A program made the position numbers and the translations under genes. Source: Sipunculus nudus (lineage: Eukaryota; Annelida; Sipuncula; Golfingiida; Sipunculidae). Taken from it: DNA of 64,000 nucleotides. Below the pieces are notes generated by a model, which saw only the letters and a list, made by a program, of their open reading frames with translations, ran no database searches and had not been told where the DNA came from. Location of the stretch: the NCBI GenBank assembly GCA_026874595.1, contig CM049313.1:28950008-29014007 (forward strand), in the 5' to 3' direction. Shown here piece by piece: positions 317 to 62,970 of this stretch (positions within the stretch are counted from its first letter, which is position 1; each line of letters begins with the position of its first letter).

Positions 317-517
317 AACTGGTCTAAATAAAACACCCTTCGACGGCAAAATCAAATATAAACTATAATATAAACTATACATCATTGGAAAGCACAATTG
401 AAATGCTAATGATAAAACCCCTTCCGATTAGGTGTACAATGCACCGTTTTTCCGCTACCGCCCACTAAAATACGACATTAGTATAAATCTTGAAAAATGG
501 TGTAGTTTAGAATAATG
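317..517. repeat. 201-bp monomer with 12-bp internal duplication
   Basis: AATATAAACTAT is present twice in a row in the TATA-rich part of the unit, adding 12 bp. TCTAAATAAAACACC replaces TCTGTACAACACC, adding 2 bp. Together they account for 201 instead of 187. Confidence 0.9.
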
Positions 518-2192: not shown

Positions 2193-3687
2193 AACTGGTC
2201 TGTACAACGCCCTTCGACGGCAAAATCATATATAAACTATACATCATTGGAAAGCAAATTTAAAATTCTATCGATTAAACCCCGTCCGATCAGGTGAACA
2301 ACGCACCGTTTTTGCGCTACCGCCCACTAAAATACGACATTCATATAAATCTTGAAAAATGGTGTAGTTTAGAATAATGAACTGGTCTGTACAACACCCT
2401 TCGACGGCAAAATCATATATAAACTATACATCATTGGAAAGCACATGTAAAATGATATCGATTAAACCCCGTCCGATCAGGTGTACAACGCACCGTTTTT
2501 GCGTTACCGCCCACTAAAATACGACATTCATATAAATCTTGAAAAATGATGTAGTTTTGAATAATGAACTGGTCTGTACAACACCCTTCGACGGCAAAAT
2601 CATATATTAACTATACATCATTCGAAAATACAATTAAAATGCTATCGTTTAAACCCCGTCCGATCAGGTGAACAACGCACCGTTTTTCCGCTACCGCCCA
2701 CTAAAATACGACGTTACTATAAATCTTGAAAAATGGTGTAGTTTTGAATAATGAACTGGTCTGTACAACACCCTTCGACGGCAAAATCATATATAAACTA
2801 TACATCATTGGAAAGCACATTTAAAATGCTATTGATTTAACCTCGTCCGATCAAATGTACAACGCTCCGTTTTTCCGCTACCGCCCAGTAAAATACATTA
2901 ATATAAATCTTGAAAAATGAAGGTAGTTTTGAATAATGAACTGGGGCTGTACAACACCCTTCGACGGCAAAATCATATATAAACTATACATCATTGGAAA
3001 GCACATGTAAAATGCCATCGATTAAAGCCCGTCCGATCAGGAGTACAACGCACCGTTTTTGCGTTACCGCCCACTAAAATACGACATTCATATAAATCTT
3101 GAAATATGGTGTAGTTTTGAATAATGAATTGGTCTGTACAACACCCTTCGACGGCAAAATCATATATAAACTATACATCATTGGAAAGCACATTTAAAAT
3201 TCTATCGATTTAACCCCGTCCGAATAGGTGTACAACGCACCGTTTTTCCGCTACCGCCCACTAAAATATGACATTCATATAAATCTTGAAAATTGGTGTA
3301 GTTTTGAATAATGAACTGGTCTGTACAACGCCCTTCGACGGCAAAATCATATATAAACTATACATCATTGGAAAGCACATTTAAAATTCTATCGATTAAA
3401 CCCCGTCCGATCAGGTGTACAACGCACCGTTTTTCCGCTACCGCCCACTAAAATACGACATTCATATAAATCTTGAAAAATGGTGTAGTTTTGAATAATG
3501 AACTGGTCTGTATAACACCCTTCGACGGCAAAATCATATATAAACTATACATCATTGGAAAGCACATTTAAAATTCTATCGATTAAACCCCGTCCGAATA
3601 GGTGTACAACGCACCGTTTTTCCGCTACCGCCCACTAAAATACGACATTAATATAAATCTTGAAAAATGGTGTAGTTTTGAATAAAG
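2193..3687. repeat. Higher-order core cassette e-d-c-a-b-k-g-h, copy at 2.2 kb
   Basis: Eight monomers in a fixed order, starting at 2193, 2380, 2567, 2754, 2939, 3127, 3314 and 3501. Each has its own diagnostic variants (see the summary for the letters). The a unit here lacks GAC in AAATACGACATT near 2895, so it is 3 bp short. The same order, or long parts of it, recurs at 7.1, 14.2, 20.7, 24.5, 28.1, 35.5, 38.5, 42.6, 44.5 and 60 kb. This is the nearest thing to a higher-order repeat unit in the array. Confidence 0.85.
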
Positions 3688-4186: not shown

Positions 4187-4571
4187 TACCGCCCACTAAA
4201 ATACGACATTAATATAAATCTTGAAAAATGGTGTAGTTTAGAATAATGAACTGGTCTGTACAACACCCTTCGACGGCAAAATCAAATATAAACTATAATA
4301 TAAACTATACATTATGGAAAGCACAATTGAAATGCTAATGATAAAACCCCGTCCGATTAGGTGTAAAGCGCACCGTTTTTCCGCTACCGCCCACTAAAAT
4401 ACGACATTAATATAATTAAAAAAAAATGGTGTAGTTTTGAATAATGAACTGGTCTGTACAACACCCTTCGACGGCAAAATCAAATATAAACTATACATCA
4501 TTGGAAAGCACATTTAAAATTCTATCGATTAAACCCCGTCCCATTAGGTGTAGAACGCACCGTTTTTCCGC
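4187..4571. repeat. Two-monomer insertion, or deletion in partner, 385 bp
   Basis: The length equals one 187-bp and one 198-bp unit. It contains the 12-bp-duplication unit and a CCCATTAGGTGTAGAACGC unit, the pair also seen at 1079-1460. The variant TACCACCCA follows it here and directly follows TTTTTGCGT in the shorter copy, so the breakpoint lies inside a monomer in register. Confidence 0.8.
4249..4446. repeat. 198-bp monomer with 12-bp duplication and A-run
   Basis: A relative of the unit at 1079, with the 12-bp duplication, CATTATGG and an A-run of about nine. It lies inside the 385-bp stretch that is missing from the paired copy at 6879-10067. Confidence 0.9.
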
Positions 4572-6210: not shown

Positions 6211-7075
6211 TCGATTAAAGCCCGTCCGATCAGGTGTACAAAGCACCGTTTTTGCGTTACCGCCCACTAAAATACGACATTCATATAAATCTTGAAAAAT
6301 GGTGTAGTTTTGAATAATGAATTGGTCTGTACAACGCCCTTCGACGGCAAAATCATATATAAACTATACATCATTGGAAAGCACATTTAAACTTCTATCG
6401 ATTAAACCCCGTCGGAATAGGTCACAACGCACCGTTTTCCGCTACCGCCCAGTAAAATACGACATTAATATAAATCTTGAAAAATGGTGTAGTTTTGAAT
6501 AATGAACTGGTCTGTACAACGCCCTTCGACGGCAAAATCATATATAAACTATACATCATTGGAAAGCACATTTAAAATTCTATCGATTAAACCCCGTCCG
6601 ATCAGGTGTACAACGCACCGTTTTTCCGCTACCGCCCACTCAAATACGACATTCATATAAATCTTGAAAAATGGTGTAGTTTTGAATAATGAACTGGTCT
6701 GTATAACACCCTTCGACGGCAAAATCATATATAAACTATACATCATTGGAAAGCACATTTAAAATTCTATCGATTAAACCCCGTCCGAATAGGTGTACAA
6801 CGCACCGTTTTTCCGCTACCGCCCACTAAAATACGACATTAATATAAATCTTGAAAAATGGTGTAGTTTTGAATACTGAACTGGTCTGTACAACACCCTT
6901 CGACGGCAAAATCATATATAAACTATATATCATTGGAAAGCACATATAAAATGCTATCGATTTAACCCCGTCCGATCAAGTGTACAAAGCACTGTTTTCC
7001 GCTAACGCCCACTAAAAGACGACATTCATATAAATCTTGAAAAATGGTGTAGTTTTGAATAATGAACTGGTCTGT
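5591..7075. repeat. Duplicated block, partner at 12725-14210
   Basis: Eight monomers match at +7134, or +7135 after a one-base difference in a T run near 6436. They include a j unit (CTTCTATCGATTAAAC with GTCGGAATAGGTCACAAC), a g unit with the variant CCACTCAAATACG in both copies, an h unit and an f unit. The match ends near 7075, where the next unit is e here and a in the partner. Confidence 0.85.
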
Positions 7076-10067
7076 ACAACGCCCTTCGACGGCAAAATCA
7101 TATATAAACTATACATCATTGGAAAGCACATTTAAAATTCTATCGATTAAACCCCGTCCGATCAGGTGAACAACGCACCGTTTTTGCGCTACCGCCCACT
7201 AAAATACGACATTCATATAAATCTTGAAAAATGGTGTAGTTTAGAATAATGAACTGGTCTGTACAACACCCTTCGACGGCAAAATCATATATAAACTATA
7301 CATCATTGGAAAGCACATGTAAAATGATATCGATTAAACCCCGTCCGATCAGGTGTACAACGCACCGTTTTTGCGTTACCGCCCACTAAAATACGACATT
7401 CATATAAATCTTGAAAAATGATGTAGTTTTGAATAATGAACTGGTCTGTACAACACCCTTCGACGGCAAAATCATATATTAACTATACATCATTCGAAAA
7501 TACAATTAAAATGCTATCGTTTAAACCCCGTCCGATCAGGTGAACAACGCACCGTTTTTCCGCTACCGCCCACTAAAATACGACGTTACTATAAATCTTG
7601 AAAAATGGTGTAGTTTTGAATAATGAACTGGTCTGTACAACACCCTTCGACGGCAAAATCATATATAAACTATACATCATTGGAAAGCACATTTAAAATG
7701 CTATTGATTTAACCTCGTCCGATCAAATGTACAACGCTCCGTTTTTCCGCTACCGCCCAGTAAAATACGACATTAATATAAATCTTGAAAAATGAAGGTA
7801 GTTTTGAATAATGAACTGGGGCTGTACAACACCCTTCGACGGCAAAATCATATATAAACTATACATCATTGGAAAGCACATGTAAAATGCTATCGATTAA
7901 AGCCCGTCCGATCAGGAGTACAACGCACCGTTTTTGCGTTACCGCCCACTAAAATACAACATTAATATAAATCTTGAAATATGGTGTAGTTTTGAATAAT
8001 GAATTGGTCTGTACAACACCCTTCGACGGCAAAATCATATATAAACTATACATCATTGGAAAGCACATTTAAAATTCTATCGATTTAACCCCGTCCGAAT
8101 AGGTGTACAACGCACCATTTTTCCGCTACTGCCCACTAAAATATGACATTCATATAAATCTTGAAAATTGGTGTAGTTTTGAATAATGAACTGGTCTGTA
8201 CAACGCCCTTCGACGGCAAAATCATATATAAACTATACATCATTGGAAAGCACATTTAAAATTCTATCGATTAAACCCCGTCCGATCAGGTGTACAACGC
8301 ACCGTTTTTCCGCTACCGCCCACTAAAATACGACATTCATATAAATCTTGAAAAATGGTGTAGTTTTGAATAATGAACTGGTCTGTATAACACCCTTCGA
8401 CGGCAAAATCATATATAAACTATACATCATTGGAAAGCACATTTAAAATTCTATCGATTAAACCCCGTCCGAATAGGTGTACAACGCACCGTTTTTCCGC
8501 TACCGCCCACTAAAATACGACGTTAATATAAATCTTGAAAAATGGTGTAGTTTTGAATAAAGAACTGGTCTGTACAACATTCTTTAACGGGAAAATCATA
8601 TATAAACTATACATCATTCGAAAATACATTTAAAATGCTATCGATTAAACACCGTCCGAATAGGTGAACAACGCACCGTTTTTCCGCTACCGCCCACTAA
8701 AATACGACAATATTATAAATCTTGAAAAATTGTGTAGTTTTGAATAATGAACTGGTCTGTACAACACCCTTCGACGGCAAAATCATATATAAACTATACA
8801 CCATTGGAAAGCACATTTAAAATGCTATTGATTAAACCCCGTCCGATCAGGTGTACAAAGCACCGTTTTTGCGCTACCGCCCACTAAAATACGACATTCA
8901 TATAAATCTTGAAAAATGGTGTAGTTTAGAATAATGAACTGGTCTGAACAACACCCTTCGACGGCAAAATCATATATAAACTATACATCAATGGAAAGCA
9001 CATGTAAAATGATATCGATTAAACCCCGTCCGATCAGATGTACAGCGCACCGTTTTTGCGTTACCACCCACTAAAATACGACATTAATATAAATCTTGAA
9101 AAATGGTGTAGTTTAGAATAATGAACTGGTCTGTACAACACCCTTCGACGGGAAAATCATATATAAACTATACATCATTCGAAAATACAATTAAAATGCT
9201 ATCGTTTATACCCCGTCCGATCAGGTGAACAACGCACCGTTTTTCCGCTACCGCCCACTAAAATACGACGTTAATATAAATCTTGAAAAATGGTGTAGTT
9301 TTGAATAATGAACTGGTCTGTACAACACCCTTCGACGGCAAAATCATATATAAACTATACATCATTGGAAAGCACATTTAAAATGCTATTGATTTAACCT
9401 CGTCCGATCAAATGTACAACGCTCCGTTTTTCCGCCACCGCCCAGTAAAATACGACATTAATATAAATCTTGAAAAATGAAGGTAGTTTTGAATAATGAA
9501 CTGGGGCTGTACAACATCCTTCGACGGCAAAATCAAATATGAACTATACATCATCGGAAAGCATATTTAAAATGCTATCGACTAAACTGCATCCGATCAG
9601 GTGTACAAAGCACCGTTTTTGCGCTACCGCCCACTAAAATACGACATTCATATAAATCTTGAAAAATGGTGTAGTTTAGAATAATGAACTGGTCTGTACA
9701 ACACACTTCGACGGCAAAATCATATATAAACTATACATCATTGGAAAGCACATGTAAAATGCTATTGATTAAGCCCTGTCCGATCAGGTGTACAAAGCAT
9801 TGTTTTCCGCTACCGCCCACTAAAAGACGACATTAATATAAATCTTGAAAAATGGTGTAGTTTTGAATAATGAACTGGTCTGTACAACACCCTTCGACGG
9901 CAAAATCATATATAAACTATACACCATTGGAAAGCACATTTAAAATGCTATTGATTAAACCCCGTCCGATCAGGTGTACAAAGCACCGTTTTTGCGCTAC
10001 CGCCCACTAAAATACGACATTCATATAAATCTTGAAAAATGGTGTAGTTTAGAATAATGAACTGGTC
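6879..10067. repeat. Large duplication, right copy (partner 2007-5577)
   Basis: It follows the same unit order as the left copy without the two extra monomers. Markers that pair up include CAAGTGTACAAAGCACTG, CTGGGGCTGTACAAC (2941 and 7816), ACATTCTTTAACGGG (3701 and 8576) and CAGATGTACAGC (4160 and 9035). It carries ACCACCCAC near 9063, whereas the left copy has this variant after the extra monomers. Confidence 0.85.
7065..8562. repeat. Higher-order core cassette e-d-c-a-b-k-g-h, copy at 7.1 kb
   Basis: Same eight-monomer order as at 2193, at an offset of about 4.87 kb. Here the a unit is intact, so the cassette is 3 bp longer. It is preceded by an f unit and followed by a CATTCGAAAATACATTT unit with ACATTCTTTAACGGG, exactly as in the first copy. 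Confidence 0.85.
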
Positions 10068-10995: not shown

Positions 10996-11194
10996 AACTG
11001 GTCTAAATACAACACCCTTCGACGGCAAAATCAAATATAAACTATAATATAAACTATACATTATGGAAAGCACAATTGAAATGCTAATGATAAAACCCCG
11101 TCCGATTAGGTGTAAAACGCACCGTTTTTCCGCTACCGCCCACTAAAATACGACATTAATATAAATAAAAAAAATGGTGTAGTTTTGAATAATG
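10996..11194. repeat. 199-bp monomer with 12-bp duplication and A-run
   Basis: It has TCTAAATACAACACC, the 12-bp AATATAAACTAT duplication, CATTATGG and an A-run. The following unit starts AGCTGG instead of AACTGG. Confidence 0.88.
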
Positions 11195-11438: not shown

Positions 11439-12178
11439 GAAAGCACATTTAAAATGCTATCGACTAAACTGCATCCGATCAGGTGTACAAAGCACCGTTT
11501 TTCCGCTACCGCCCACTAAAATACGACATTCATATAAATCTTGAAAAATGGTGTAGTTTTGAATAATGAACTGGTCTGTACAACACCCTTCGACGGCAAA
11601 ATCAAATATAAACTATACATCATTGGAAAGCACATTTAAAATGCTATTGATTAAACCCTGTCCGATCAGGTGTACAAAGCACTGTTTTCCGCTACCGCCC
11701 ACTAAAAAACGACATTAATATAAATCTTGAAAAATGGTGTAGTTTTGAATAATGAACTGGTCTAAATAAAACACCCTTCGACGGCAAAATCAAATATAAA
11801 CTATAATATAAACTATACATCATTGGAAAGCACAATTGAAATGCTAATGATAAAACCCCTTCCGATTAGGTGTACAATGCACCGTTTTTCCGCTACCGCC
11901 CACTAAAATACGACATTAGTATAAATCTTGAAAAATGGTGTAGTTTTGAATAATGAACTGGTCTGTACAACACCCTTCGACGGCAAAATCATATATAAAC
12001 TATACATCATTGGAAAGCACATTTAAAATTCTATCGATTAAACCCCGTCCCATTAGGTGTAGAACGCACCGTTTTTCCGCTACCGCCCACTAAAATACGA
12101 CATTAATATAAATCTTGAAAAATGGTGTAGTTTTGAATAAAGAACTGGTCTGTACAACATTCTTTAACGGGAAAATCA
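11439..12178. repeat. Duplicated segment, partner at 1-740
   Basis: Second copy of the four-monomer run at the left end of the window, with small differences such as AAAAAACGAC instead of AAAATACGAC near 11705 and AGAACGCACC for ACAATGCACC. It is followed by ACATTCTTTAACGGG units that match 8575 onward, so the block was joined to a different neighbour from the one at 740. Confidence 0.85.
11755..11955. repeat. 201-bp monomer with 12-bp internal duplication
   Basis: Equivalent of the unit at 317-517, with the same two insertions, lying inside the block repeated at an 11,438-base offset. Confidence 0.9.
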
Positions 12179-23570: not shown

Positions 23571-26500
23571 CGGCAAAATCATATATTAACTATACATCAT
23601 TGGAAAGCACATTTAAAATGCTATTGATTTAACCTCGTCCGATCAAATGTACAACGCTCAGTTTTTCCGCTACCGCCCAGTAAAATACGACATTAATATA
23701 AATCTTGAAAAATGAAGGTAGTTTTGAATAATGAACTGGTCTGTACAACACCCTTCGACGGCAAAATCATATATTAACTATCCATCATTCGAAAATACAA
23801 TTAAAATGCTATCGTTTAAACCCCGTCCGATCAGGTGAACAACGCACCGTTTTTCCGCTACCGCCCACTAAAATACGACGTTACTATAAATCTTGAAAAA
23901 TGGTGTAGTTTTGAATAATGAACTGGTCTGTACAACACCCTTCGACGGCAAAATCATATTTAAACTATACATCATTGGAAAGCACATTTAAAATGCTATT
24001 GATTTAACCTCGTCCGATCAAATGTACAACACTCCGTTTTTCCGCTACCGCCCAGTAAAATACGACATTAATATAAATCTTGAAAAATGAAGGTAGTTTT
24101 GAATAATGAACTAGGGCTGTACAACACCCTTCGACGGCAAAATCATATATAAACTATACATCATTGGAAAGCACATGTAAAATGCTATCGATTAAAGCCC
24201 GTCCGATCAGGAGTACAACGCACCGTTTTTGCGTTACCGCCCACTAAAATACGACATTCATATAAATCTTGAAATATGGTGTAGTTTTGAATAATGAATT
24301 GGTCTGTACAACACCCTTCGACGGCAAAATCATATATTAACTATACATCATTCGAAAATACAATTAAAATGCTATCGTTTAAACCCCGTCCGATCAGGTG
24401 AACAACGCACCGTTTTTCCGCTACCGCCCACTAAAATACGACGTTACTATAAATCTTGAAAAATGGTGTAGTTTTGAATAATGAACTGGTCTGTACAACA
24501 CCCTTCGACGGCAAAATCATATATAAACTATACATCATTGGAAAGCACATTTAAAATGCTATTGATTTAACCTCGTCCGATCAAATGTACAACACTCCGT
24601 TTTTCCGCTACCGCCCAGTAAAATACGACATTTATATAAATCTTGAAAAATGAAGGTAGTTTTGAATAATGAACTGGGGCTGTACAACACCCTTCGACGG
24701 CAAAATCATATATAAACTATACATCATTGGAAAGCACATGTAAAATGCTATCGATTAAAGCCCGTCCGATCAGGAGTACAACGCACCGTTTTTGCGTTAC
24801 CGCCCACTAAAATACGACATTCATATAAATCTTGAAATATGGTGTAGTTTTGAATAATGAATTGGTCTGTACAACACCCTTCGACGGCAAAATCATATAT
24901 AAACTATACATCATTGGAAAGCACATTTAAAATTCTATCGATTTAACCCCGTCCGAATAGGTGTACAACGCACCGTTTTTCCGCTACTGCCCACTAAAAT
25001 ATGACATTCATATAAATCTTGAAAATTGGTGTAGTTTTGAATAATGAACTGGTCTGTACAACGCCCTTCGACGGCAAAATCATATATAAACTATACATCA
25101 TTGGAAAGCACATTTATAATTCTATCGATTAAACCCCGTCCGATCAGGTGTACAACGCACCGTTTTTCTGCTACCGCCCACTAAAGTACGACATTCATAT
25201 AAATCTTGAAAAATGGTGTAGTTTTGAATAATGAACTGGTCTGTATAACACCCTTCGACGGCAAAATCATATATAAACTATACATCATTGGAAAGCACAT
25301 TTAAAATTCTATCGATTAAACCCCGTCCGAATAGGTGTACAACGCACCGTTTTTCCGCTACCGCCCACTAAAATACGACGTTAATATAAATCTTGAAAAA
25401 TGGTGTAGTTTTGAATAATGAACTGGTCTGTACAACGCCCTTCGACGGCAAAATCATATATAAACTATACATCATTGGAAAGCAAATTTAAAATTCTATC
25501 GATTAAATCCCGTCCGATCAGGTGAACAACGCACCGTTTTTGCGCTACCGCCCACTAAAATACGACATTCATATAAATCTTGAAAAATGGTGTAGTTTAG
25601 AATAATGAACTGGTCTGTACAACACCCTTCGACGGCAAAATCATATATAAACTATAAATCATTGGAAAGCACATGTAAAATGATATCGATTAAACCCCGT
25701 CCGATCAGGTGTACAACGCACCGTTTTTGCGTTACCGCCCACTAAAATACGACATTCATATAAATCTTGAAAAATGATGTAGTTTTGAATAATGAACTGG
25801 TCTGTACAACACCCTTCGACGGCAAAATCATATATTAACTATACATCATTCGAAAATACAATTAAAATGCTATCGTTTAAACCCCGTCCGATCAGGTGAA
25901 CAACGCACCGTTTTTCCGCTACCGCCCACTAAAATACGACATTAATATAAATCTTGAAAAATGGTGTAGTTTAGAATAATGAACTGGTCTGTACAACACC
26001 CTTCGACGGGAAAATCATATATAAACTATACATCATTCGAAAATACAATTAAAATGCTATCGTTTAAACCCCGTCCGATCAGGTGAACAACGCACCGTTT
26101 TTCCGCTACCGCCCACTAAAATACGACGTTAATATAAATCTTGAAAAATGGTGTAGTTTTGAATAATGAACTGGTCTGTACAACACCCTTCGACGGCAAA
26201 ATCATATATAAACTATACATCATTGGAAAGCACATTTAAAATGCTATTGATTTAACCTCGTCCGATCAAATGTACAACGCTCCGTTTTTCCGCCACCGCC
26301 CAGTAAAATACGACATTAATATAAATCTTGAAAAATGAAGGTAGTTTTGAATAATGAACTGGGGCTGTACAACACCCTTCGACGGCAAAATCAAATATGA
26401 ACTATACATCATCGGAAAGCATATTTAAAATGCTATCGACTAAACTGCATCCGATCAGGTGTACAAAGCACCGTTTTTGCGCTACCGCCCACTAAAATAC

Positions 26501-26818
26501 GACATTCATATAAATCTTGAAAAATGGTGTAGTTTAGAATAATGAACTGGTCTGTACAACACACTTCGACGGCAAAATCATATATAAACTATACATCATT
26601 GGAAAGCACATGTAAAATGCTATCGATTAAAGCCCGTCCGATCAGGTGTACAATGCACCGTTTTTGCGTTACCGCCCACTAAAATACGACATTCATATAA
26701 ATCTTGAAAAATGGTGTAGTTTTGAATAATGAATTGGTCTGTACAACGCCCTTCGACGGCAAAATCATATATAAACTATACATCATTGGAAAGCACATTT
26801 AAACTTCTATCGATTAAA
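22884..26818. repeat. 3.9-kb tandem duplication, copy 1
   Basis: It begins with CCTCATCCGATC at 22884 and runs about 21 monomers to 26818, then the same string restarts at 26819. Shared rare markers include GCTCAGTTTTT (23659), TATCCATC (23779), CTAGGGCTG (24111), ACATTTATATAA (24628), CATTTATAATTC (25111) and AACTATAAATC (25650). All reappear in order in copy 2. It overlaps the end of the 2.9-kb block, which shows layered events. Confidence 0.9.
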
Positions 26819-29800
26819 CCTCATCCGATCAAATGTACAACGCTCCGTTTTTCCGCTACCGCCCAGTAAAATACGACATTAATATAAATCTTGAAAAATG
26901 AAGGTAGTTTTGAATAATGAACTGGTCTGTACAACACCCTTCGACGGCAAAATCATATATTAACTATACATCATTCGAGAATACAATTAAAATGCTATCG
27001 TTTAAACCCCGTCCGATCAGGTGAACAACGCACCGTTTTTCCGCTACCGCCCACTAATATACGACGTTACTATAAATCTTGAAAAATGGTGTAGTTTTGA
27101 ATAATGAACTGGTCTGTACAACGCCCTTCGACGGCAAAATCATATATAAACTATACATCATTGGAAAGCAAATTTAAAATTCTATCGATTAAACCCCGTC
27201 CGATCAGGTGAACAACGCACCGTTTTTGCGCTACCGCCCACTAAAATACGACATTCATATAAATCTTGAAAAATGGTGTAGTTTAGAATAATGAACTGGT
27301 CTGTACAACACCCTTCGACGGCAAAATCATATATAAACTATACATCATTGGAAAGCACATGTAAAATGATATCGATTAAACCCCGTCCGATCAGGTGTAC
27401 AACGCACCGTTTTTGCGTTACCGCCCACTAAAATACGACATTCATATAAATCTTGAAAAATGATGTTGTTTTGAATAATGAACTGGTCTGTACAACACCC
27501 TTCGACGGCAAAATCATATATTAACTATACATCATTGGAAAGCACATTTAAAATGCTATTGATTTAACCTCGTCCGATCAAATGTACAACGCTCAGTTTT
27601 TCCGCTACCGCCCAGTAAAATACGACATTAATATAAATCTTGAAAAATGAAGGTAGTTTTGAATAATGAACTGGTCTGTACAACACCCTTCGACGGCAAA
27701 ATCATATATTAACTATCCATCATTCGAAAATACAATTAAAATGCTATCGTTTAAACCCCGTCCGATCAAATGTACAACACTCCGTTTTTCCGCTACCGCC
27801 CAGTAAAATACGACATTAATATAAATCTTGAAAAATGAAGGTAGTTTTGAATAATGAACTAGGGCTGTACAACACCCTTCGACGGCAAAATCATATATAA
27901 ACTATACATCATTGGAAAGCACATGTAAAATGCTATCGATTAAAGCCCGTCCGATCAGGAGTACAACGCACCGTTTTTGCGTTACCGCCCACTAAAATAC
28001 GACATTCATATAAATCTTGAAATATGGTGTAGTTTTGAATAATGAACTGGTCTGTACAACACCCTTCGACGGCAAAATCATATATAAACTATACATCATT
28101 GGAAAGCACATTTAAAATGCTATTGATTTAACCTCGTCCGATCAAATGTACAACACTCCGTTTTTCCGCTACCGCCCAGTAAAATACGACATTTATATAA
28201 ATCTTGAAAAATGAAGGTAGTTTTGAATAATGAACTGGGGCTGTACAACACCCTTCGACGGCAAAATCATATATAAACTATACATCATTGGAAAGCACAT
28301 GTAAAATGCTATCGATTAAAGCCCGTCCGATCAGGAGTACAACGCACCGTTTTTGCGTTACCGCCCACTAAAATACGACATTCATATAAATCTTGAAATA
28401 TGGTGTAGTTTTGAATAATGAATTGGTCTGTACAACACCCTTCGACGGCAAAATCATATATAAACTATACATCATTGGAAAGCACATTTAAAATTCTATC
28501 GATTTAACCCCGTCCGAATAGGTGTACAACGCACCGTTTTTCCGCTACTGCCCACTAAAATATGACATTCATATAAATCTTGAAAATTGGTGTAGTTTTG
28601 AATAATGAACTGGTCTGTACAACGCCCTTCGACGGCAAAATCATATATAAACTATACATCATTGGAAAGCACATTTATAATTCTATCGATTAAACCCCGT
28701 CCGATCAGGTGTACAACGCACCGTTTTTCTGCTACCGCCCACTAAAGTACGACATTCATATAAATCTTGAAAAATGGTGTAGTTTTGAATAATGAACTGG
28801 TCTGTATAACACCCTTCGACGGCAAAATCATATATAAACTATACATCATTGGAAAGCACATTTAAAATTCTATCGATTAAACCCCGTCCGAATAGGTGTA
28901 CAACGCACCGTTTTTCCGCTACCGCCCACTAAAATACGACGTTAATATAAATCTTGAAAAATGGTGTAGTTTTGAATAATGAACTGGTCTGTACAACGCC
29001 CTTCGACGGCAAAATCATATATAAACTATACATCATTGGAAAGCAAATTTAAAATTCTATCGATTAAATCCCGTCCGATCAGGTGAACAACGCACCGTTT
29101 TTGCGCTACCGCCCACTAAAATACGACATTCATATAAATCTTGAAAAATGGTGTAGTTTAGAATAATGAACTGGTCTGTACAACACCCTTCGACGGCAAA
29201 ATCATATATAAACTATAAATCATTGGAAAGCACATGTAAAATGATATCGATTAAACCCCGTCCGATCAGGTGTACAACGCACCGTTTTTGCGTTACCGCC
29301 CACTAAAATACGACATTCATATAAATCTTGAAAAATGATGTAGTTTTGAATAATGAACTGGTCTGTACAACACCCTTCGACGGCAAAATCATATATTAAC
29401 TATACATCATTCGAAAATACAATTAAAATGCTATCGTTTAAACCCCGTCCGATCAGGTGAACAACGCACCGTTTTTCCGCTACCGCCCACTAAAATACGA
29501 CATTAATATAAATCTTGAAAAATGGTGTAGTTTAGAATAATGAACTGGTCTGTACAACACCCTTCGACGGGAAAATCATATATAAACTATACATCATTCG
29601 AAAATACAATTAAAATGCTATCGTTTAAACCCCGTCCGATCAGGTGAACAACGCACCGTTTTTCCGCTACCGCCCACTAAAATACGACGTTAATATAAAT
29701 CTTGAAAAATGGTGTAGTTTTGAATAATGAACTGGTCTGTACAACACCCTTCGACGGCAAAATCATATATAAACTATACATCATTGGAAAGCACATTTAA

Positions 29801-37559: not shown

Positions 37560-40500
37560 GAAAAATGGTGTAGTTTTGAATAATGAACTGGTCTGTACAA
37601 CACCTTTCGACGGCAAAATCATATATAAACTATACATCATTGGAAAGCACATTTAAAATTCTATCGATTAAACCCCGTCCGATCAGGTGTACAACGCACC
37701 GTTTTTCCGCTACCGCCCACTAAAATACGACATTCATATAAATCTTGAAAAATGGTGTAGTTTTGAATAATGAACTGGTCTGTATAACACCCTTCGACGG
37801 CAAAATCATATATAAACTATACATCATTGGAAAGCACATTTAAATTTCTATCGATTAAACCCCGTCCGAATAGGTGTACAACGCACCGTTTTTCCGCTAC
37901 CGCCCACTAAAATAGACATTAATATAAATCTTGAAAAATGGTGTAGTTTTGAATAATGAACTGGTCTGTACAACACCTTTCGACGGCAAAATCATATATA
38001 AACTATACATCATTGGAAAGCACATTTAAAATTCTATCGATTAAACCCCGTCCGATCAGGTGTACAACGCACCGTTTTTCCGCTACCGCCCACTAAAATA
38101 CGACATTCATATAAATCTTGAAAAATGGTGTAGTTTTGAATAATGAACTGGTCTGTATAACACCCTTCGACGGCAAAATCATATATCAACTATACATCAT
38201 TGGAAAGCACATTTAAATTTCTATCGATTAAACCCCGTCCGAATAGGTGTACAACGCACCGTTTTTCCGCTACCGCCCACTAAAATAGACATTAATATAA
38301 ATCTTGAAAAATGGTGTAGTTTTGAATAATGAACTGGTCTGTACAACACCCTTCGACGGCAAAATCATATATAAACTATATATCATTGGAAAGCACATAT
38401 AAAATGCTATCGATTTAACCCCGTCCGATCAAGTGTACAAAGCACTGTTTTCCGCTAACGCCCACTAAAATACGACATTCATATAAATCTTGAAAAATGG
38501 TGTAGTTTTGAATAATGAACTGGTCTGTACAACGCCCTTCGACGGCAAAATCATATATAAACTATACATCATTGGAAAGCAAATTTAAAATTCTATCGAT
38601 TAAACCCCGTCCGATCAGGTGAACAACGCACCGTTTTTGCGCTACCGCCCACTAAAATACGACATTCATATAAATCTTGAAAAATGGTGTAGTTTAGAAT
38701 AATGAACTGGTCTGTACAACACCCTTCGACGGCAAAATCATATATAAACTATACATCATTGGAAAGCACATGTAAAATGATATCGATTAAACCCCGTCCG
38801 ATCAGGTGTACAACGCACCGTTTTTGCGTTACCGCCCACTAAAATACGACATTCATATAAATCTTGAAAAATGATGTAGTTTTAAATAATGAACTGGTCT
38901 GTACAACACCCTTCGACGGCAAAATCATATATTAACTATACATCATTCGAAAATACAATTAAAATGCTATCGTTTAAACCCCGTCCGATCAGGTGAACAA
39001 CGCACCGTTTTTCCGCTACCGCCCACTAAAATACGACGTTACTATAAATCTTGAAAAATGGTGTAGTTTTGAATAATGAACTGGTCTGTACAACACCCTT
39101 TGACGGCAAAATCATATATAAACTATACATCATTGGAAAGCACATTTAAAATGCTATTGATTTAAACTCGTCCGATCAAATGTACAACGCTCCGTTTTTC
39201 CGCTACCGCCCAGTAAAATACGACATTAATATAAATCTTGAAAAATGAAGGTAGTTTTGAATAATGAACTGGGGCTGTACAACACCCTTCGACGGCAAAA
39301 TCATATATAAACTATACATCATTGGAAAGCACATGTAATATGCTATCGATTAAAGCCCGTCCGATCAGGAGTACAACGCACCGTTTTTGCGTTACCGCTC
39401 ACTAAAATACGACATTCATATAAATCTTGAAATATGGTGTAGTTTTGAATAATGAATTGGTCTGTACAACACCCTTCGACGGCAAAATCATATATAAACT
39501 ATATATCATTGGAAAGCACATTTAAAATTCTATCGATTTAACCCCGTCCGAATAGGTGTACAACGCACCGTTTTTCCGCTACTGCCCACTAAAATACGAC
39601 ATTCATATAAATCTTGAAATTTGGTGTAGTTTTGAATAATGAACTGGTCTGTACAACGCCCTTCGACGGCAAAATCATATATAAACTATACATCATTGGA
39701 AAGCACATTTAAAATTTTATCGATTAAACCCCGTCCGATCAGGTGTACAACGCACCGTTTTTCCGCTACCGCCCACTAAAATACGACATTCATATAAATC
39801 TTGAAAAATGGTGTAGTTTAGAATAATGAACTGGTCTGTACAACACCCTTCGACGGCAAAATCATATATAAACTATACATCATTGGAAAGCACATGTAAA
39901 ATGATATCGATTAAACCCCGTCCTATCAGGTGTACAACGCACCGTTTTTGCGTTACCGCCCACTAAAATACGACATTCATATAAATCTTGAAAAATGATG
40001 TAGTTTTGAATAATGAACTGGTCTGTACAACACCCTTCGACGGCAAAATCATATATTAACTATACATCATTCGAAAATACAATTAAAATGCTATCGTTTA
40101 AACCCCGTCCGATCAGGTGAACAACGCACCGTTTTTCTGCTACCGCCCACTAAAATACGACGTTACTATAAATCTTGAAAAATGGTGTAGTTTTGAATAA
40201 TGAACTGGTCTGTACAACACCCTTCGACGGCAAAATCATATATAAACTATACATCATTGGAAAGCACATTTAAAATGCTATTGATTTAACCTCGTCCGAT
40301 CAAATGTACAACGCTCCGTTTTTCCGCTACCGCCCAGTAAAAAACGACATTAATATAAATCTTGAAAAATGAAGGTAGTTTTGAATAATGAACTGGGGCT
40401 GTACAACACCCTTCGACGGCAAAATCATATATTAACTATACATCATTGGAAAGCACATGTAAAATGCTATCGATTAAAGCCCGTCCGATCAGGAGTACAA

Positions 40501-41400
40501 CGCACCATTTTTGCGTTACCGCCCACTAAAATACGACATTCATATAAATCTTGAAATATGGTGTAGTTTTGAAGAATGAATTGGTCTGTACAACACCCTT
40601 CGACGGCAAAATCATATATAAACTATACATCATTGGAAAGCATATTTAACATTCTATCGATTTAACCCCGTCCGAATAGGTGTAAAACGCACCGTTTTTC
40701 CGCTACTGCCCACTAAAATACGACATTCATATAAATCTTGAAATTTGGTGTAGTTTTGAATAATGAACTGGTCTGTACAACACCTTTCGACGGCATAATC
40801 ATATATAAACTATACATCATTGGAAAGCACATTTAAAATGCTATTGATTTAACCCCGTCCGATCAAGTGTACAACGCTCCGTTTTTCCGCTACCGCCCAG
40901 TAAAATACGACATTAATATAAATCTTGAAAAATGGTGTAGTTTTGAATAATGAACTGGGGCTGTTCAACACCCTTCGATGGCAAAATCAAAAATGAACTA
41001 TACATCATTGGAAAGCATATTTAAAATGCTATCGACTAAACTGCATCCGATCAGGTGTACAAAGCACCGTTTTTGCGCTACCGCCCACTAAAATACGACA
41101 TTCATATAAATCTTGAAATATGGTGTAGTTTTGAATAATGAATTGGTCTGTACAACACCCTTCGACGGCAAAATCATATATAAACTATACATCATTGGAA
41201 AGCACATTTAAAATTCTATCGATTTAACCCCGTCCGAATAGGTGTACAACGCACCGTTTTTCCGCTACTGCCCACTAAAATACGACATTCATATAAATCT
41301 TGAAATTTGGTGTAGTTTTGAATAATGAACTGGTCTGTACAACGCCCTTCGACGGCAAAATCATATATAAACTATACATCATTGGAAAGCACATTTAAAA
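37560..41400. repeat. 3.9-kb block, partner at 58520-62540
   Basis: It matches at +20,957 up to about 40.8 kb and at +21,144 afterwards, because the partner has one more monomer. Markers are GTTTTAAATAATG (38880 and 59837), GTTACCGCTCAC (39391 and 60348), AAAAAACGACATT and GAAGAATGAATTGG (40571 and 61528). It carries dimer, f, e-d-c-a-b-k-g and d-c-a-b-k runs followed by m-i units. Confidence 0.87.
37586..38331. repeat. 373-bp dimer repeated twice (g-h with TTAAATTTCTATCG)
   Basis: Two copies of a g plus h dimer, 37586-37958 and 37959-38331. Each has ACACCTTTCGACGG in the first monomer, TCTGTATAACACC and TTAAATTTCTATCG in the second, and AAAATAGACATT (one base short). The second copy has ATATATCAAC near 38184. 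The same double dimer is found at 51996 and 58543. Confidence 0.88.
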
Positions 41401-42640: not shown

Positions 42641-43250
42641 GGTCTGTACAACGCCCTTCGACGGCAAAATCATATATAAACTATACATCATTGGAAAGCA
42701 AATTTAAAATTCTATCGATTAAACCCCGTCCGATCAGGTGAACAACGCACCGTTTTTGCGCTTCCGCCCACTAAAATACGACATTCATATAAATCTTGAA
42801 AAATGGTGTAGTTTAGAATAATGAACTGGTCTGTACAACACCCTTCGACGGCAAAATCATATATAAACTATACATCATTGGAAAGCACATGTAAAATGAT
42901 ATCGATTAAACCCCGTCCGATCAGGTGTACAACGCACCGTTTTTGCGTTACCGCCCACTTAAATACGACATTCATATAAATCTTGAAAAATGATGTAGTT
43001 TTGAATAATGAACTGGTCTGTACAACACCCTTCGACGGCAAAATCATATATTAACTATACATCATTCGAAAATACAATTAAAATGCTATCGTTTAAACCC
43101 CGTCCGATCAGGTGAACAACGCACCGTTTTTCCGCTACCGCCCACTAAAATACGACGTTACTATAAATCTTGAAAAATGGTGTAGTTTTGAATAATGAAC
43201 TGGTCTGTACAACACCCTTCGACGGCAAAATCATATATAAACTATACATC

Positions 43251-45122
43251 TTTGGAAAGCACATTTAAAATGCTATTGATTTAACCTCGTCCGATCAAAT
43301 GTACAACGCTCAGTTTTTCCGCTACCGCCCAGTAAAATACGACATTAATATAAATCTTGAAAAATGAAGGTAGTTTTGAATAATGAACTGGTCTGTACAA
43401 CACCCTTCGACGGCAAAATCATATATTAACTATCCATCATTCGAAAATACAATTAAAATGCTATCGTTTAAACCCCGTCCGATCAGGTGAACAACGCACC
43501 GTTTTTCCGCTACCGCCCACTAAAATACGACGTTACTATAAATCTTGAAAAATGGTGTAGTTTTGAATAATGAACTGGTCTGTACAACACCCTTCGATGG
43601 CAAAATCATATATAAACTATACATCATTGGAAAGCACATTTAAAATGCTATTGATTTAACCTCGTCCGATCAAATGTACAACGCTCCGTTTTTCCGCTAC
43701 CGCCCAGTAAAATACGACATTAATATAAATCTTGAAAAATGAAGGTAGTTTTGAATAATGAACTGGGGCTGTACAACACCCTTCGACGGCAAAATCATAT
43801 ATAAACTATACATCATTGGAAAGCACATGTAAAATGCTATCGATTAAAGCCCGTCCGATCAGGAGTACAACGCACCGTTTTTGCGTTACCGCCCACTAAA
43901 ATACGACATTCATATAAATCTTGAAATATGGTGTAGTTTTGAATAATGAATTGGTCTGTACAACACCCTTCGACGGCAAAATCATATATAAACTATACAT
44001 CATTGGAAAGCACATTTAAAATTCTATCGATTTAACCCCGTCCGAATAGGTGTACAACGCACCGTTTTTCCGCTTCTGCCCACTAAAATATGACATTCAT
44101 ATAAATCTTGAAAATTGGTGTAGTTTTGAATAATGAACTGGTCTGTCCAACGCCCTTCGACGGCAAAATCATATATAAACTATACATCATTGGAAAGCAC
44201 ATTTAAAATTCTATCGATTAAACCCCGTCCGATCAGGTGTACAACGCACCGTTTTTCCGCTACCGCCCACTAAAATACGACATTCATATAAATCTTGAAA
44301 AATGGTGTAGTTTTGAATAATGAACTGGTCTGTATAACACCCTTCGACGGCAAAATCATATATAAACTATACATCATTGGAAAGCACATTTAAAATTCTA
44401 TCGATTAAACCCCGTCCGAATAGGTGTACAACGCACCGTTTTTCCGCTACCGCCCACTAAAATAGACATTAATATAAATCTTGAAAAATGGTGTAGTTTT
44501 GAATAATGAACTGGTCTGTACAACGCCCTTCGACGGCAAAATCATATATAAACTATACATCATTGGAAAGCAAATTTAAAATTCTATAGATTAAACCCCG
44601 TCCGATCAGGTGAACAACGCACCGTTTTTGCGCTACCGCCCACTAAAATACGACATTCATATAAATCTTGAAAAATGGTGTAGTTTAGAATAATGAACTG
44701 GTCTGTACAACACCCTTCGACGGCAAAATCATATATAAACTATACATCATTGGAAAGCACATGTAAAACGATATCGATTAAACCCCGTCCGATCAGGTGT
44801 ACAACGCACCGTTTTTGCGTTACCGCCCACTAAAATACGACATTCATATAAATCTTGAAAAATGATGTAGTTTTGAATAATGAACTGGTCTGTACAACAC
44901 CCTTCGACGGCAAAATCATATATTAACTATACATCATTCGAAAATACAATTAAATGCTATCGTTTAAACCCCGTCCGATCAGGTGAACAACGCACCGTTT
45001 TTTCCGCTACCGCCCACTAAAATACGACGTTACTATAAATCTTGAAAAATGGTGTAGTTTTGAATAATGAACTGGTCTGTACAACACCCTTCGACGGCAA
45101 AATCATATATAAACTATACATC
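43251..45122. repeat. 1872-bp ten-monomer tandem duplication, copy 1
   Basis: Monomers in the order a (CATCTTTGG, GCTCAG), c (TATCCATC), a, b, k (GCTTCTGCCC), g (TCTGTCCAACGCC), h, e (TCTATAGATT), d (AAAACGATATCG), c. TTTGGAAAGC at 43251 recurs at 45123, and TCTGTCCAAC at 44142 recurs at 46014. Every rare marker I checked is shared at exactly +1872, so this is probably one of the most recent large events. Confidence 0.92.
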
Positions 45123-46990
45123 TTTGGAAAGCACATTTAAAATGCTATTGATTTAACCTCGTCCGATCAAATGTACAACGCTCAGTTTTTCCGCTACCGC
45201 CCAGTAAAATACGACATTAATATAAATCTTGAAAAATGAAGGTAGTTTTGAATAATGAACTGGTCTGTACAACACCCTTCGACGGCAAAATCATATATTA
45301 ACTATCCATCATTCGAAAATACAATTAAAATGCTATCGTTTAAACCCCGTCCGATCAGGTGAACAACGCACCGTTTTTCCGCTACCGCCCACTAAAATAC
45401 GACGTTACTATAAATCTTGAAAAATGGTGTAGTTTTGAATAATGAACTGGTCTGTACAACACCCTTCGATGGCAAAATCATATATAAACTATACATCATT
45501 GGAAAGCACATTTAAAATGCTATTGATTTAACCTCGTCCGATCAAATGTACAACGCTCCGTTTTTCCGCTACCGCCCAGTAAAATACGACATTAATATAA
45601 ATCTTGAAAAATGAAGGTAGTTTTGAATAATGAACTGGGGCTGTACAACACCCTTCGACGGCAAAATCATATATAAACTATACATCATTGGAAAGCACAT
45701 GTAAAATGCTATCGATTAAAGCCCGTCCGATCAGGAGTACAACGCACCGTTTTTGCGTTACCGCCCACTAAAATACGACATTCATATAAATCTTGAAATA
45801 TGGTGTAGTTTTGAATAATGAATTGGTCTGTACAACACCCTTCGACGGCAAAATCATATATAAACTATACATCATTGGAAAGCACATTTAAAATTCTATC
45901 GATTTAACCCCGTCCGAATAGGTGTACAACGCACCGTTTTTCCGCTTCTGCCCACTAAAATATGACATTCATATAAATCTTGAAAATTGGTGTAGTTTTG
46001 AATAATGAACTGGTCTGTCCAACGCCCTTCGACGGCAAAATCATATATAAACTATACATCATTGGAAAGCACATTTAAAATTCTATCGATTAAACCCCGT
46101 CCGATCAGGTGTACAACGCACCGTTTTTCCGCTACCGCCCACTAAAATACGACATTCATATAAATCTTGAAAAATGGTGTAGTTTTGAATAATGAACTGG
46201 TCTGTATAACACCCTTCGACGGCAAAATCATATATAAACTATACATCATTGGAAAGCACATTTAAAATTCTATCGATTAAACCCCGTCCGAATAGGTGTA
46301 CAACGCACCGTTTTTCCGCTACCGCCCACTAAAATAGACATTAATATAAATCTTGAAAAATGGTGTAGTTTTGAATAATGAACTGGTCTGTACAACGCCC
46401 TTCGACGGCAAAATCATATATAAACTATACATCATTGGAAAGCAAATTTAAAATTCTATAGATTAAACCCCGTCCGATCAGGTGAACAACGCACCGTTTT
46501 TGCGCTACCGCCCACTAAAATACGACATTCATATAAATCTTGAAAAATGGTGTAGTTTAGAATAATGAACTGGTCTGTACAACACCCTTCGACGGCAAAA
46601 TCATATATAAACTATACATCATTGGAAAGCACATGTAAAACGATATCGATTAAACCCCGTCCGATCAGGTGTACAACGCACCGTTTTTGCGTTACCGCCC
46701 ACTAAAATACGACATTCATATAAATCTTGAAAAATGATGTAGTTTTGAATAATGAACTGGTCTGTACAACACCCTTCGACGGCAAAATCATATATTAACT
46801 ATACATCATTCGAAAATACAATTAAATGCTATCGTTTAAACCCCGTCCGATCAGGTGAACAACGCACCGTTTTTTCCGCTACCGCCCACTAAAATACGAC
46901 GTTACTATAAATCTTGAAAAATGGTGTAGTTTTGAATAATGAACTGGTCTGTACAACACCCTTCGACGGCAAAATCATATATAAACTATA
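45123..46990. repeat. 1872-bp ten-monomer tandem duplication, copy 2
   Basis: It has the same ten monomers and markers as copy 1. The end continues into a CCTCATCC unit that belongs to the 14.41-kb-offset block, so copy 2 overlaps the start of that block. I saw no differences between the copies at the markers checked. Confidence 0.92.
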
Positions 46991-55546: not shown

Positions 55547-57350
55547 AACTGGTCTGTACAACACCCTTCGACGGCAAAATCATATATTAACTATACATCA
55601 TTCGAAAATACAATTAAAATGCTATCGTTTAAACCCCGTCCGATCAGGTGAACAACGCACCGTTTTTCTGCTACCGCCCACTAAAATACGACGTTACTAT
55701 AAATCTTGAAAAATGGTGTAGTTTTGAATAATGAACTGGTCTGTACAACACCCTTCGACGGCAAAATCATATATAAACTATACATCATTGGAAAGCACAT
55801 TTAAAATGCTATTGATTTAACCTCGTCCGATCAAATGTACAACGCTCCGATTTTCCGCTACCGCCCAGTAAAATACGACATTAATATAAATCTTGAAAAA
55901 TGAAGGTAGTTTTGAATAATGAACTGGGGCTGTACAACACCCTTCGACGGCAAAATCATATATAAACTATACATCATTGGAAAGCACATGTAAAATGCTA
56001 TCGATTAAAGCCCGTCCGATCAGGAGTACAACGCACCGTTTTTGCGTTACCGCCCACTAAAATACGACATTCATATAAATCTTGAAATATGGTGTAGTTT
56101 TGAAGAATGAATTGGTCTGTACAACACCCTTCGACGGCAAAATCATATATAAACTATACATCATTGGAAAGCATATTTAACATTCTATCGATTTAACCAC
56201 GTCCGAATAGGTGTAAAACGCACCGTTTTTCCGCTACTGCCCACTAAAATACGACATTCATATAAATCTTGAAATTTGGTGTAGTTTTGAATAATGAACT
56301 GGTCTGTACAACACCTTTCGACGGCAAAATCATATATAAACTATACATCATTGGAAAGCACATTTAAAATTCTATCGATTAAACCCCGTCCGATCAGGTG
56401 TACAACGCACCGTTTTTCCGCTACCGCCCAGTAAAATACGACATTAATATAAATCTTGAAAAATGGTGTATTTTGAATAATGAACTGGTCTGTACAACAC
56501 CTTTCGACGGCAAAATCATATATAAACTATACATCATTGGAAAGCACATTTAAAATGCTATTGATTTAACCCCGTCCGATCAAGTGTACAACGCTCCGTT
56601 TTTCCGCTACCGCCCAGTAAAATACGACATTAATATAAATCTTGAAAAATGGTGTAGTTTTGAATAATGAACTGGGGCTGTTCAACACCCTTCGATGGCA
56701 AAATCAAAAATGAACTATACATCATTGGAAAGCATATTTAAAATGCTATCGACTAAACTGCATCCGATCAGGTGTACAAAGCACCGTTTTTGCGCTACCG
56801 CCCACTAAAATACAACATTCATATAAATCTTGAAATATGGTGTAGTTTTGAATAATGAATTGGTCTGTACAACACCCTTCGACGGCAAAATCATATATAA
56901 ACTATACATCATTGGAAAGCACATTTAAAATTCTATCGATTTAACCCCGTCCGAATAGGTGTACAACGCACCGTTTTTCCGCTACTGCCCACTAAAATAC
57001 GACATTCATATAAATCTTGAAATTTGGTGTAGTTTTGAATAATGAACTGGTCTGTACAACGCCCTTCGACGGCAAAATCATATATAAACTATACATCATT
57101 GGAAAGCACATTTAAAATTCTATCGATTAAACCCCGTCCGATCAGGTGTACAACGCACCGTTTTTCCGCTACCGCCCACTAAAATACGACATTCATATAA
57201 ATCTTGAAAAATGGTGTAGTTTTGAATAATGAACTGGTCTGTACAACACCTTTCGACGGCAAAATCATATATAAACTATACATCATTGGAAAGCACATTT
57301 AAAATGCTATTGATTTAACCCCGTCCGATCAAGTGTACAACGCTCCGTTT
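55547..57350. repeat. c-a-b-k-m-i-k-g-m block, partners near 40.0 and 60.97 kb
   Basis: GAAGAATGAATTGG lies at 56102 here, 40571 in the first partner and 61528 in the third. c units with TTTCTGCTACC open all three. The g-m-i-k-g-m sequence then leads into an H block both here and after 62.97 kb. Private changes are GCTCCGATTTTCC near 55845, AACCACGTCC near 56195 and GGTGTATTTTG near 56465. Confidence 0.84.
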
Positions 57351-58640
57351 TTCCGCTGCCGCCCAGTAAAATACGACATTAATATAAATCTTGAAAAATG
57401 GTGTAGTTTTGAATAATGAACTGGGGCTGTTCAACACCCTTCGATGGCAAAATCAAAAATGAACTATACATCATTGGAAAGCATATTTAAAATGCTATCG
57501 ACTAAACTGCATCCGATCAGGTGTACAAAGCACCGTTTTTCCGCTACCGCCCACTAAAATACGATATTGATATAAATCTTGAAAAATGGTGTAGTTTAGA
57601 ATAATGAACTGGTCTGTACAACACCCTTCGACGGCAAAATCATATATAAACTATACATCATTGGAAAGCACATTTAAAATTCTATCGAGTAAACCCCGTC
57701 CCATTAGGTGTACAAAGCACCGTTTTTGCGCTACCGCCCACTAAAATACGACATTTATATAAATCTTGAAAAATGGTGTAGTTTAGAATAATGAACAGGT
57801 CTGTACAACACACTTCGACGGCAAAATCATATATAAACTATACATCATTGGAAAGCACATGTAAAATGCTATCGATTAAACCCCGTCGGAATAGGTCACA
57901 ACAGACCGTTTTTCCGCTACCGCCCACTAAAATACGACATTAATATAAATCTTGAAAAATGGTGTAGTTTTGAATAATGAACTGCGGCTGTACAACACCC
58001 TTCGACGGCAAAATCATATATAAACTATACATCATTGGAAAGCACATTTAAAATTCTATCGATAAAACCTCGTCCTATTAGGTGTAGAACGCACCGTTTT
58101 TTCCGCTACCGCCCACTAAAATACGACATAAATATCAATCTTGAAAAATGGTGTAGTTTTGAATAAAGAACTGGTCTGTACAACACTCTTTAACGGGAAA
58201 ATCATATATAAACTATTCATCATTCGAAAATACATTTAAAATGCTATCGATTAAACCCCGTCCGAATAGGTGAACAACGCACCGTTTTTCCGCTACCGCC
58301 CACTAAAATACGACATTAATATGAATCTTGAAAAATGGTGTAGTTTTGAATAAAGAACTGGTCTGTACAACACCCTTCAACTGCAAAATCATATGTAAAC
58401 TAGACATCATTCGAAAGCACATTTAAAATTCTATCGATTAAACCCCGTCCGAATAGGTGTACAACTCACCGTTTTTCCGCTACCGCCCACTAAAATACGA
58501 CATTAATATAAATCTTGAAAAATGGTGTAGTTTTGAATAATGAACTGGTCTGTACAACACCCTTCGTCGGCAAAATCATATATAAACTATACATCATTGG
58601 AAAGCACATTTAAAATTCTATCGATTAAACCCCGTCCGAT
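57350..58640. repeat. Divergent block H3
   Basis: Same order as H1 and H2, but it stops after the CTTCGTCGGC unit, which passes into a g-type tail without CGCATCG. Private changes are ACTGCGGCTG near 57982 and CGTCCTATTAGG near 58071. It shares AACTAGACATC with H2. Confidence 0.86.
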
Positions 58641-61600: not shown

Positions 61601-62540
61601 ATTTAACATTCTATCGATTTAACCCCGTCCGAATAGGTGTAAAACGCACCGTTTTTCCGCTACTGCCCACTAAAATACGACATTCATATAAATCTTGAAA
61701 TTTGTTGTAGTTTTGAATAATGAACTGGTCTGTACAACACCTTTCGACGGCAAAATCATATATAAACTATACATCATTGGAAAGCACATTTAAAATTCTA
61801 TCGATTAAACCCCGTCCGATCAGGTGTACAACGCACCGTTTTTCCGCTACCGCCCACTAAAATACGACATTAATATAAATCTTGAAAAATGGTGTAGTTT
61901 TGAATAATGAACTGGTCTGTACAACACCTTTCGACGGCAAAATCATATATAAACTATACATCATTGGAAAGCACATTTAAAATGCTATTGATTTAACCCC
62001 GTCCGATCAAGTGTACAACGCTCCGTTTTTCCGCTACCGCCCAGTAAAATACGACATTAATATAAATCTTGAAAAATGGTGTAGTTTTGAATAATGAACT
62101 GGGGCTGTTCAACACCCTTCGATGGCAAAATCAAAAATGAACTATACATCATTGGAAAGCATATTTAAAATGCTATCGACTAAACTGCATCCGATCAGGT
62201 GTACAAAGCACCGTTTTTGCGCTACCGCAACACTAAAATACGACATTCATATAAATCTTGAAATATGGTGTAGTTTTGAATAATGAATTGGTCTGTACAA
62301 CACCCTTCGACGGCAAAATCATATATAAACTATACATCATTGGAAAGCACATTTAAAATTCTATCGATTTAACCCCGTCCGAATAGGTGTACAACGCACC
62401 GTTTTTCCGCTACTGCCCACTAAAATACGACATTCATATAAATCTTGAAATTTGGTGTAGTTTTGAATAATGAACTGGTCTGTACAACGCCCTTCGACGG
62501 CAAAATCATATATAAACTATACATCATTGGAAAGCACATT
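58520..62540. repeat. 3.9-kb block, partner at 37560-41400
   Basis: Second copy. The e unit near 59540 keeps the AAATTTAAAATTCT head but has the g tail GGTGTACAAC and TTCCGCTACC, where the partner has GGTGAACAAC and TTGCGCTACC. That is a local patch of conversion or crossover. GCTACCGCAACACTAAAA near 62223 is a private one-base gain. Confidence 0.87.
58543..59288. repeat. 373-bp g-h dimer repeated twice
   Basis: Third double dimer, 20,957 bases after the first. Its first monomer begins with the H-block variant CTTCGTCGGC, so H3 and the dimer are joined inside a unit. Private changes are TACCCCCCAC near 59229 and AATAAAAATC near 59251. Confidence 0.86.
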
Positions 62541-62970
62541 TAAAATTCTATCGATTAAACCCCGTCCGAATAGGTGTACAACGCACCGTTTTTCCGCTAC
62601 TGCCCACTAAAATACGACATTCATATAAATCTTGAAATTTGGTGTAGTTTTGAATAATGAACTGGTCTGTACAACGCCCTTCGACGGCAAAATCATATAT
62701 AAACTATACATCATTGGAAAGCACATTTAAAATTCTATCGATTAAACCCCGTCCGATCAGGTGTACAACGCACCGTTTTTCCGCTACCGCCCACTAAAAT
62801 ACGACATTCATATAAATCTTGAAAAATGGTGTAGTTTTGAATAATGAACTGGTCTGTACAACACCTTTCGACGGCAAAATCATATATAAACTATACATCA
62901 TTGGAAAGCACATTTAAAATGCTATTGATTTAACCCCGTCCGATCAAGTGTACAACGCTCCGTTTTTCCG
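60973..62970. repeat. c-a-b-k-g-m-i-k block leading into H4
   Basis: It matches 55547 onward at +5426, with one more monomer near 62.5 kb, so H4 lies 5616 bases after H3. The extra unit has CGATTAAACCCC (g or h head), CGAATAGG and GCTACTGCCC with GAAATTTGG (k tail), so it is a hybrid. Confidence 0.84.

Follow-up and report, generated by a model that had tools for sequence, protein, structure and literature searches.

A 187-bp satellite array of Sipunculus nudus: a probable irregular, 'cascading' higher-order repeat, proposed to be shaped by nested in-register tandem duplication and deletion

In the TRASH definition, a higher-order repeat (HOR) is a pair of blocks of at least three monomers in the same order, with at most five variants per monomer pair (PMC10199239). 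A regular (Willard-type) HOR has a constant period and contains each monomer type once per unit. In cascading HORs, such as the human chromosome 3 17mer, a monomer type is repeated within the canonical unit and sub-blocks occur in tandem (PMC11157248). Models of satellite evolution by unequal exchange or break-induced replication derive nested and variable HORs from blocks duplicated and deleted in register; the junctions left by unequal crossing over are the same as those of break-induced replication (PMC8997354).

The window analysed here, the whole stretch of 64,000 nucleotides at C8:28950008-29014007 (C8: contig CM049313.1 of Sipunculus nudus), is filled entirely by a 187-bp satellite (window positions 1-64000, plus strand). 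When the neighbouring DNA was included, the array was found to span 194 kb on a single strand (C8:28943124-29137090), at 29 Mb on the 80.9-Mb contig C8 of a genome of 1.43 Gb (153 contigs). The sequence was divided into monomers at AACTGG, and these were aligned and grouped into clusters within about 5 nt. This gave 1017 complete monomers in the array and 341 in the window, with a modal length of 187 bp, all of one family and arranged head to tail on one strand, as in a satellite array. Their mean pairwise difference was 16 nt, or about 9%. Judging by their titles, the papers found to mention both satellite monomers and 187 bp concern primates and Crepis. A subset of longer monomers (about 199 bp) near the left end of the array is marked by a 12-bp internal duplication (AATATAAACTAT), found at window positions 355-379, 1115-1139, 4285-4309, 11034-11058 and 11793-11817. 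A single 3.7-kb insertion interrupts the array at C8:29068324-29072032; it carries terminal inverted repeats of TTACATTATGGG-like motifs and looks like a DNA transposon. A different set of monomers prevails in the array's right third (window coordinates 122000-187000); it includes a 166-bp type, K, whose alternation with 187/188-bp types produces a local 354-bp dimer.

Relatives of the satellite were found, among the matches listed, on C10 near 0.25 Mb and on C11 near 51.36 and 51.43 Mb. All minus-strand monomers sampled from C11 were 7 nt or more away from any monomer of C8, while their relatives within their own array were close (mean 3.5 nt). Chromosome-specific homogenisation is usual for satellites, and the divergence between C8 and C11 monomers is of this kind. 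Several small contigs of the assembly (C60, C61, C62, C66, C72, C74, C75, C89 and C123) carry bacterial-type haem-copper oxidase genes, encoding COX1-like proteins of 577-578 aa and, on C123, an oxidase that looks like a cbb3 type; the assembly therefore seems to include contigs of bacterial cobionts.

Under the TRASH definition the window contains HORs, with 120 strict runs (at least four monomers within 4 nt) against 0-1 in shuffles. Like the HORs of Arabidopsis CEN178 (PMC10199239), it consists of ordered blocks whose copies lie at varying distances, but the sequence and the organism are different, and a centromeric identity of the C8 array, with occupancy by CENP-A nucleosomes, would be hypothetical. 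It is not a regular HOR, as no constant period was found and types A, F, E and B each appear more than once per unit. The array resembles cascading HORs instead: as in those of alpha satellite, types recur within a unit, sub-blocks are duplicated in tandem, and variant copies carry whole-monomer inserts and deletions, whereas the C8 array is smaller (0.19 Mb against megabases), its 187-bp monomer is unrelated, and no canonical unit dominates in the window (PMC11157248). The satellite is not itself alpha satellite, which has a monomer of about 171 bp with a CENP-B box and a monomer divergence of 20-40% against about 9% here; no site within two mismatches of the CENP-B-box-like TTCG....A..CGGG was present in the window.

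The preliminary description of this DNA had reported eight variant monomers (e-d-c-a-b-k-g-h) whose order, complete or partial, returns ten times or more across the window. In our clustering, the octet at 2193-3687 consists of eight different monomer types, L-E-D-C-G-B-A-H, which start at 2193, 2380, 2567, 2754, 2940, 3127, 3314 and 3501. We searched for collinear runs of monomers in octet order, each at a nucleotide distance of at most 5; distance was used rather than labels. The recurrence was confirmed by 15 runs of at least four monomers in the window, 12 of them of at least five and seven of at least six. The whole octet occurred only twice, at 2193 and at 7065-8562, the latter within a 12-monomer block (from 6879) that matches the block from 2007 at an offset of 26 monomers. 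Runs of monomers 4-8 (C-G-B-A-H) were found at 14200 to about 15134 and 28045 to about 28979, and runs of monomers 3-8 (D-C-G-B-A-H) at 24297 to about 25418 and at 43386-44507 and 45258-46379, the last two being the copies in an exact 10-monomer tandem duplication (43198 to 45070, gap 0). Monomers 1-7 were found at 38518 to about 39826, followed by E-D-C-G-B in tandem, and at 59475 to about 60783; monomers 1-5 at 35527 to about 36461, where the first monomer is a mapped hybrid. Types L and A are only 4 nt apart, so that some partial runs start with A in place of L and overlap their neighbour by one monomer; this was the case for the runs of monomers 1-5 at 39642-40576 and 60599-61533, each of which has its first monomer in common with the preceding run. 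In the full array, 21 octet runs of at least five monomers were detected, all left of about 119 kb (window coordinates).

The predicted excess of the ordered word over shuffled strings was also observed: shuffled monomer orders gave 0.03 runs of at least four (maximum 1 in 30 shuffles), and no 7- or 8-word of the octet appeared in 2000 label shuffles. The entropy of the next monomer given the current one was 1.24 bits, against 3.04 bits in shuffled strings. When only the frequencies of neighbours were retained, in a first-order Markov chain, a mean of 1.08 whole octets resulted (maximum 6), against two observed, and 40 repeated 8-word positions (maximum 94), against 75. Since both observed counts fall within the Markov range, the octet is not distinct as a unit beyond its neighbour pairs, and a unit kept beyond pairwise adjacency is unsupported. 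The array also lacks a constant period. The best single lag matched only about 13% of monomers, which together with the low entropy agrees with the earlier statement that the array is neither periodic nor random. The dominant lag shifted along the array, with values of 10-41 monomers in most segments, and a fixed-period repeat of the octet was rejected. Right of the window, the label string and the transition table showed the types running on in a longer series, about 25 monomers in length, E-D-C-G-B-A-F-M-B-A-F-S-W-k-c-P-I-U-E-Q-R-A-H-V-L, which we infer to be the ancestral unit.

We then considered tandem duplication. Elsewhere in the array, the events that can be dated best were zero-gap tandem duplications, with units of 21, 22, 29, 30 and 139 monomers and identities of 99.7-99.9%; in the 139-monomer duplication, two units of 25.8 kb abut with gap 0 and differ by 0.24 nt per monomer. 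This duplication, at C8:29072535-29124190 (window coordinates 122528-174180), is one of the array's youngest large events; the 3.7-kb insertion directly precedes its first copy and has no counterpart at the second. In a 36-monomer tandem pair the copies overlap by three monomers. At the right edge of the window, a 30-monomer unit starting at 56858 is repeated from 62473 (gap 0, 0.43 nt per monomer), its second copy leaving the window (56858-64000, plus strand). The clean recent blocks have many sizes, and none of them is the octet. Greedy collapse of adjacent copies removed 463 of the 1017 monomers of the array and 34 of the 341 monomers of the window; after permutation of repeated phrases, it removed 66 on average (maximum 79) from the array and 10 (maximum 17) from the window. 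Six young blocks were adjacent to their copies, and none in ten permuted nulls.

The junctions between blocks were analysed through monomers whose combination of left and right neighbour is seen nowhere else (n=54 in the window). Sixteen of these were equal to a monomer that the left context predicts and 13 to one that the right context predicts, while 20 matched neither neighbour type within 1 nt. For eleven of the 20, joining a left part of one type to a right part of the other reproduced the monomer with no more than one mismatch, whereas the reverse order fitted none; the forward versus reverse composite fit of junction monomers was 16 to 0. Two exact in-register hybrids lie in a seven-monomer spacer at 26732-28044 (plus strand). 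Its first monomer, at 26732, shows 15 and 6 differences from its parents and none as a composite; its sixth, at 27669, shows 14 and 11 differences and again none as a composite. The exchange points lie at monomer positions 86-90 and 91-101, respectively. Across 48 mapped junctions, exchange points were scattered through the whole monomer and were not common to copies. The predicted hybrid was also present in several clean duplications, with units of 30, 29, 22 and 9 monomers. Forward-only composites with spread exchange points are what in-register homologous exchange predicts. The same spread speaks against a transposed cassette, as fixed ends were not found. The earlier suggestion of a core cassette copied into new contexts is retained in part: the order recurs and its context varies, but a discrete cassette was not supported. 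Recent duplications are tandem blocks of other sizes, junctions lack fixed cassette ends, the same monomers continue in the longer order, and a cassette is unneeded, neighbour pairs by themselves being enough to yield about one whole octet.

The tandem signal is weaker inside the window. Only two of the 28 young blocks starting in the window adjoin their best partner, the longest young partners are mostly over 30 monomers apart, and many young copies in its left part are non-adjacent. Monomers with an exact twin become rarer towards the left end. These properties bear on the possibility that blocks, including the octet, were placed at non-adjacent sites of the array by gene conversion or template-jumping break-induced replication. 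Two young pairs fit such copying: the 12-monomer block at 24484-26731 (plus strand) recurs at 28045 without a single difference, and the 17-monomer block at 37586 recurs at 58543 (1.1 nt per monomer, offset 112). Because seven monomers part its copies, the first pair would need two events under simple tandem duplication. Isolation by distance, tried as a sign of local duplication, was weak: within the window, same-type divergence rose only slightly with distance, and in five of the eight core types distance barely predicted it. On the side of tandem duplication, self-alignment of the window with gaps scored 84.6, while phrase-permuted nulls did not exceed 20.3 and an upward-biased Markov null did not exceed 69.5. 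The long chain depends on permissive gaps, since under strict gaps only one pair was left (17-20 monomers, offset 112).

In toy simulations with parameters of our own choosing, the collapsibility of the window (39) fell between those of a tandem-duplication model (58-179) and a dispersed-copy model (3-31). Its octet count, best lag and entropy lay within the tandem range, and the tandem model gave the better fit; the dispersed model underpredicted both the octet recurrence and the best-lag match. The segment at 54-118 kb fitted the tandem model in collapsibility as well. Against copying at a distance stand the gap-free tandem form of the clean recent events in the rest of the array and the lack of exchange points common to different copies; distant pairs could also be old tandem copies parted by later insertions or deletions. 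It is therefore unlikely that the octet and other blocks were spread by copying at a distance, and equally doubtful that the use of non-adjacent templates carried blocks of the older left array over distances from several up to tens of kilobases; if it did, local order would spread by jumping copies besides tandem duplication. We read the window as an older, more scrambled tandem structure that subsequent deletions and duplications have worn down, and infer that the same process, rather than long-range copying, built this older part.

The order of the array was taken from the assembly alone, and assembly errors would alter it. Satellites in general get misjoined by assemblers, and several segments right of the window have clear local periods, as would be expected if a regular fixed-period HOR had become irregular only through such errors. 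However, the irregularity extends throughout the window, with many distinguishable types and hybrids that fit with 0 mismatch, and the copies differ by point changes and so are not simple collapsed duplicates. Errors of assembly are thus a very improbable source of the irregularity.

Selection on the octet as a functional unit, for example a kinetochore or transcription module, would agree with its rank in the window: among 334 window octets, those at 2193 and 7065 scored highest, with 12 and 13 runs of at least five monomers (median 3). However, the number of whole copies is near that given by pairwise adjacency, the octet as such is absent from the right third of the array, and the sampled C11 monomers are all distant from those of C8. 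The reading frame of the satellite contains stops, and neither an ORF of at least 70 aa nor an Rfam family was found in it, the CENP-B-box-like site being likewise absent from the window. Such selection is hardly credible, and no function is indicated for the octet itself.

Taken together, these results make it probable that the C8 array is an irregular ('cascading') HOR array shaped by nested in-register tandem duplication and deletion. In this reading, an older series, with about 25 variant monomers in a set order, would have undergone many in-register duplications and deletions, which affected blocks of 1-139 monomers. The route may have been homologous misalignment between sister chromatids or homologues, followed by unequal exchange or out-of-register break-induced replication; as their junctions are identical, the two are not separable here. 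Within the left part of the array, the octet would be the stretch of the old order that has suffered the fewest cuts, and would for this reason recur with changing neighbours. It needs no special explanation, and known processes account for the array well. The array is contiguous and displays duplication junctions at base level, from young tandem copies of 99.9% identity to old scrambled ones, so that models of the origin and decay of HORs become testable outside primates and Arabidopsis.
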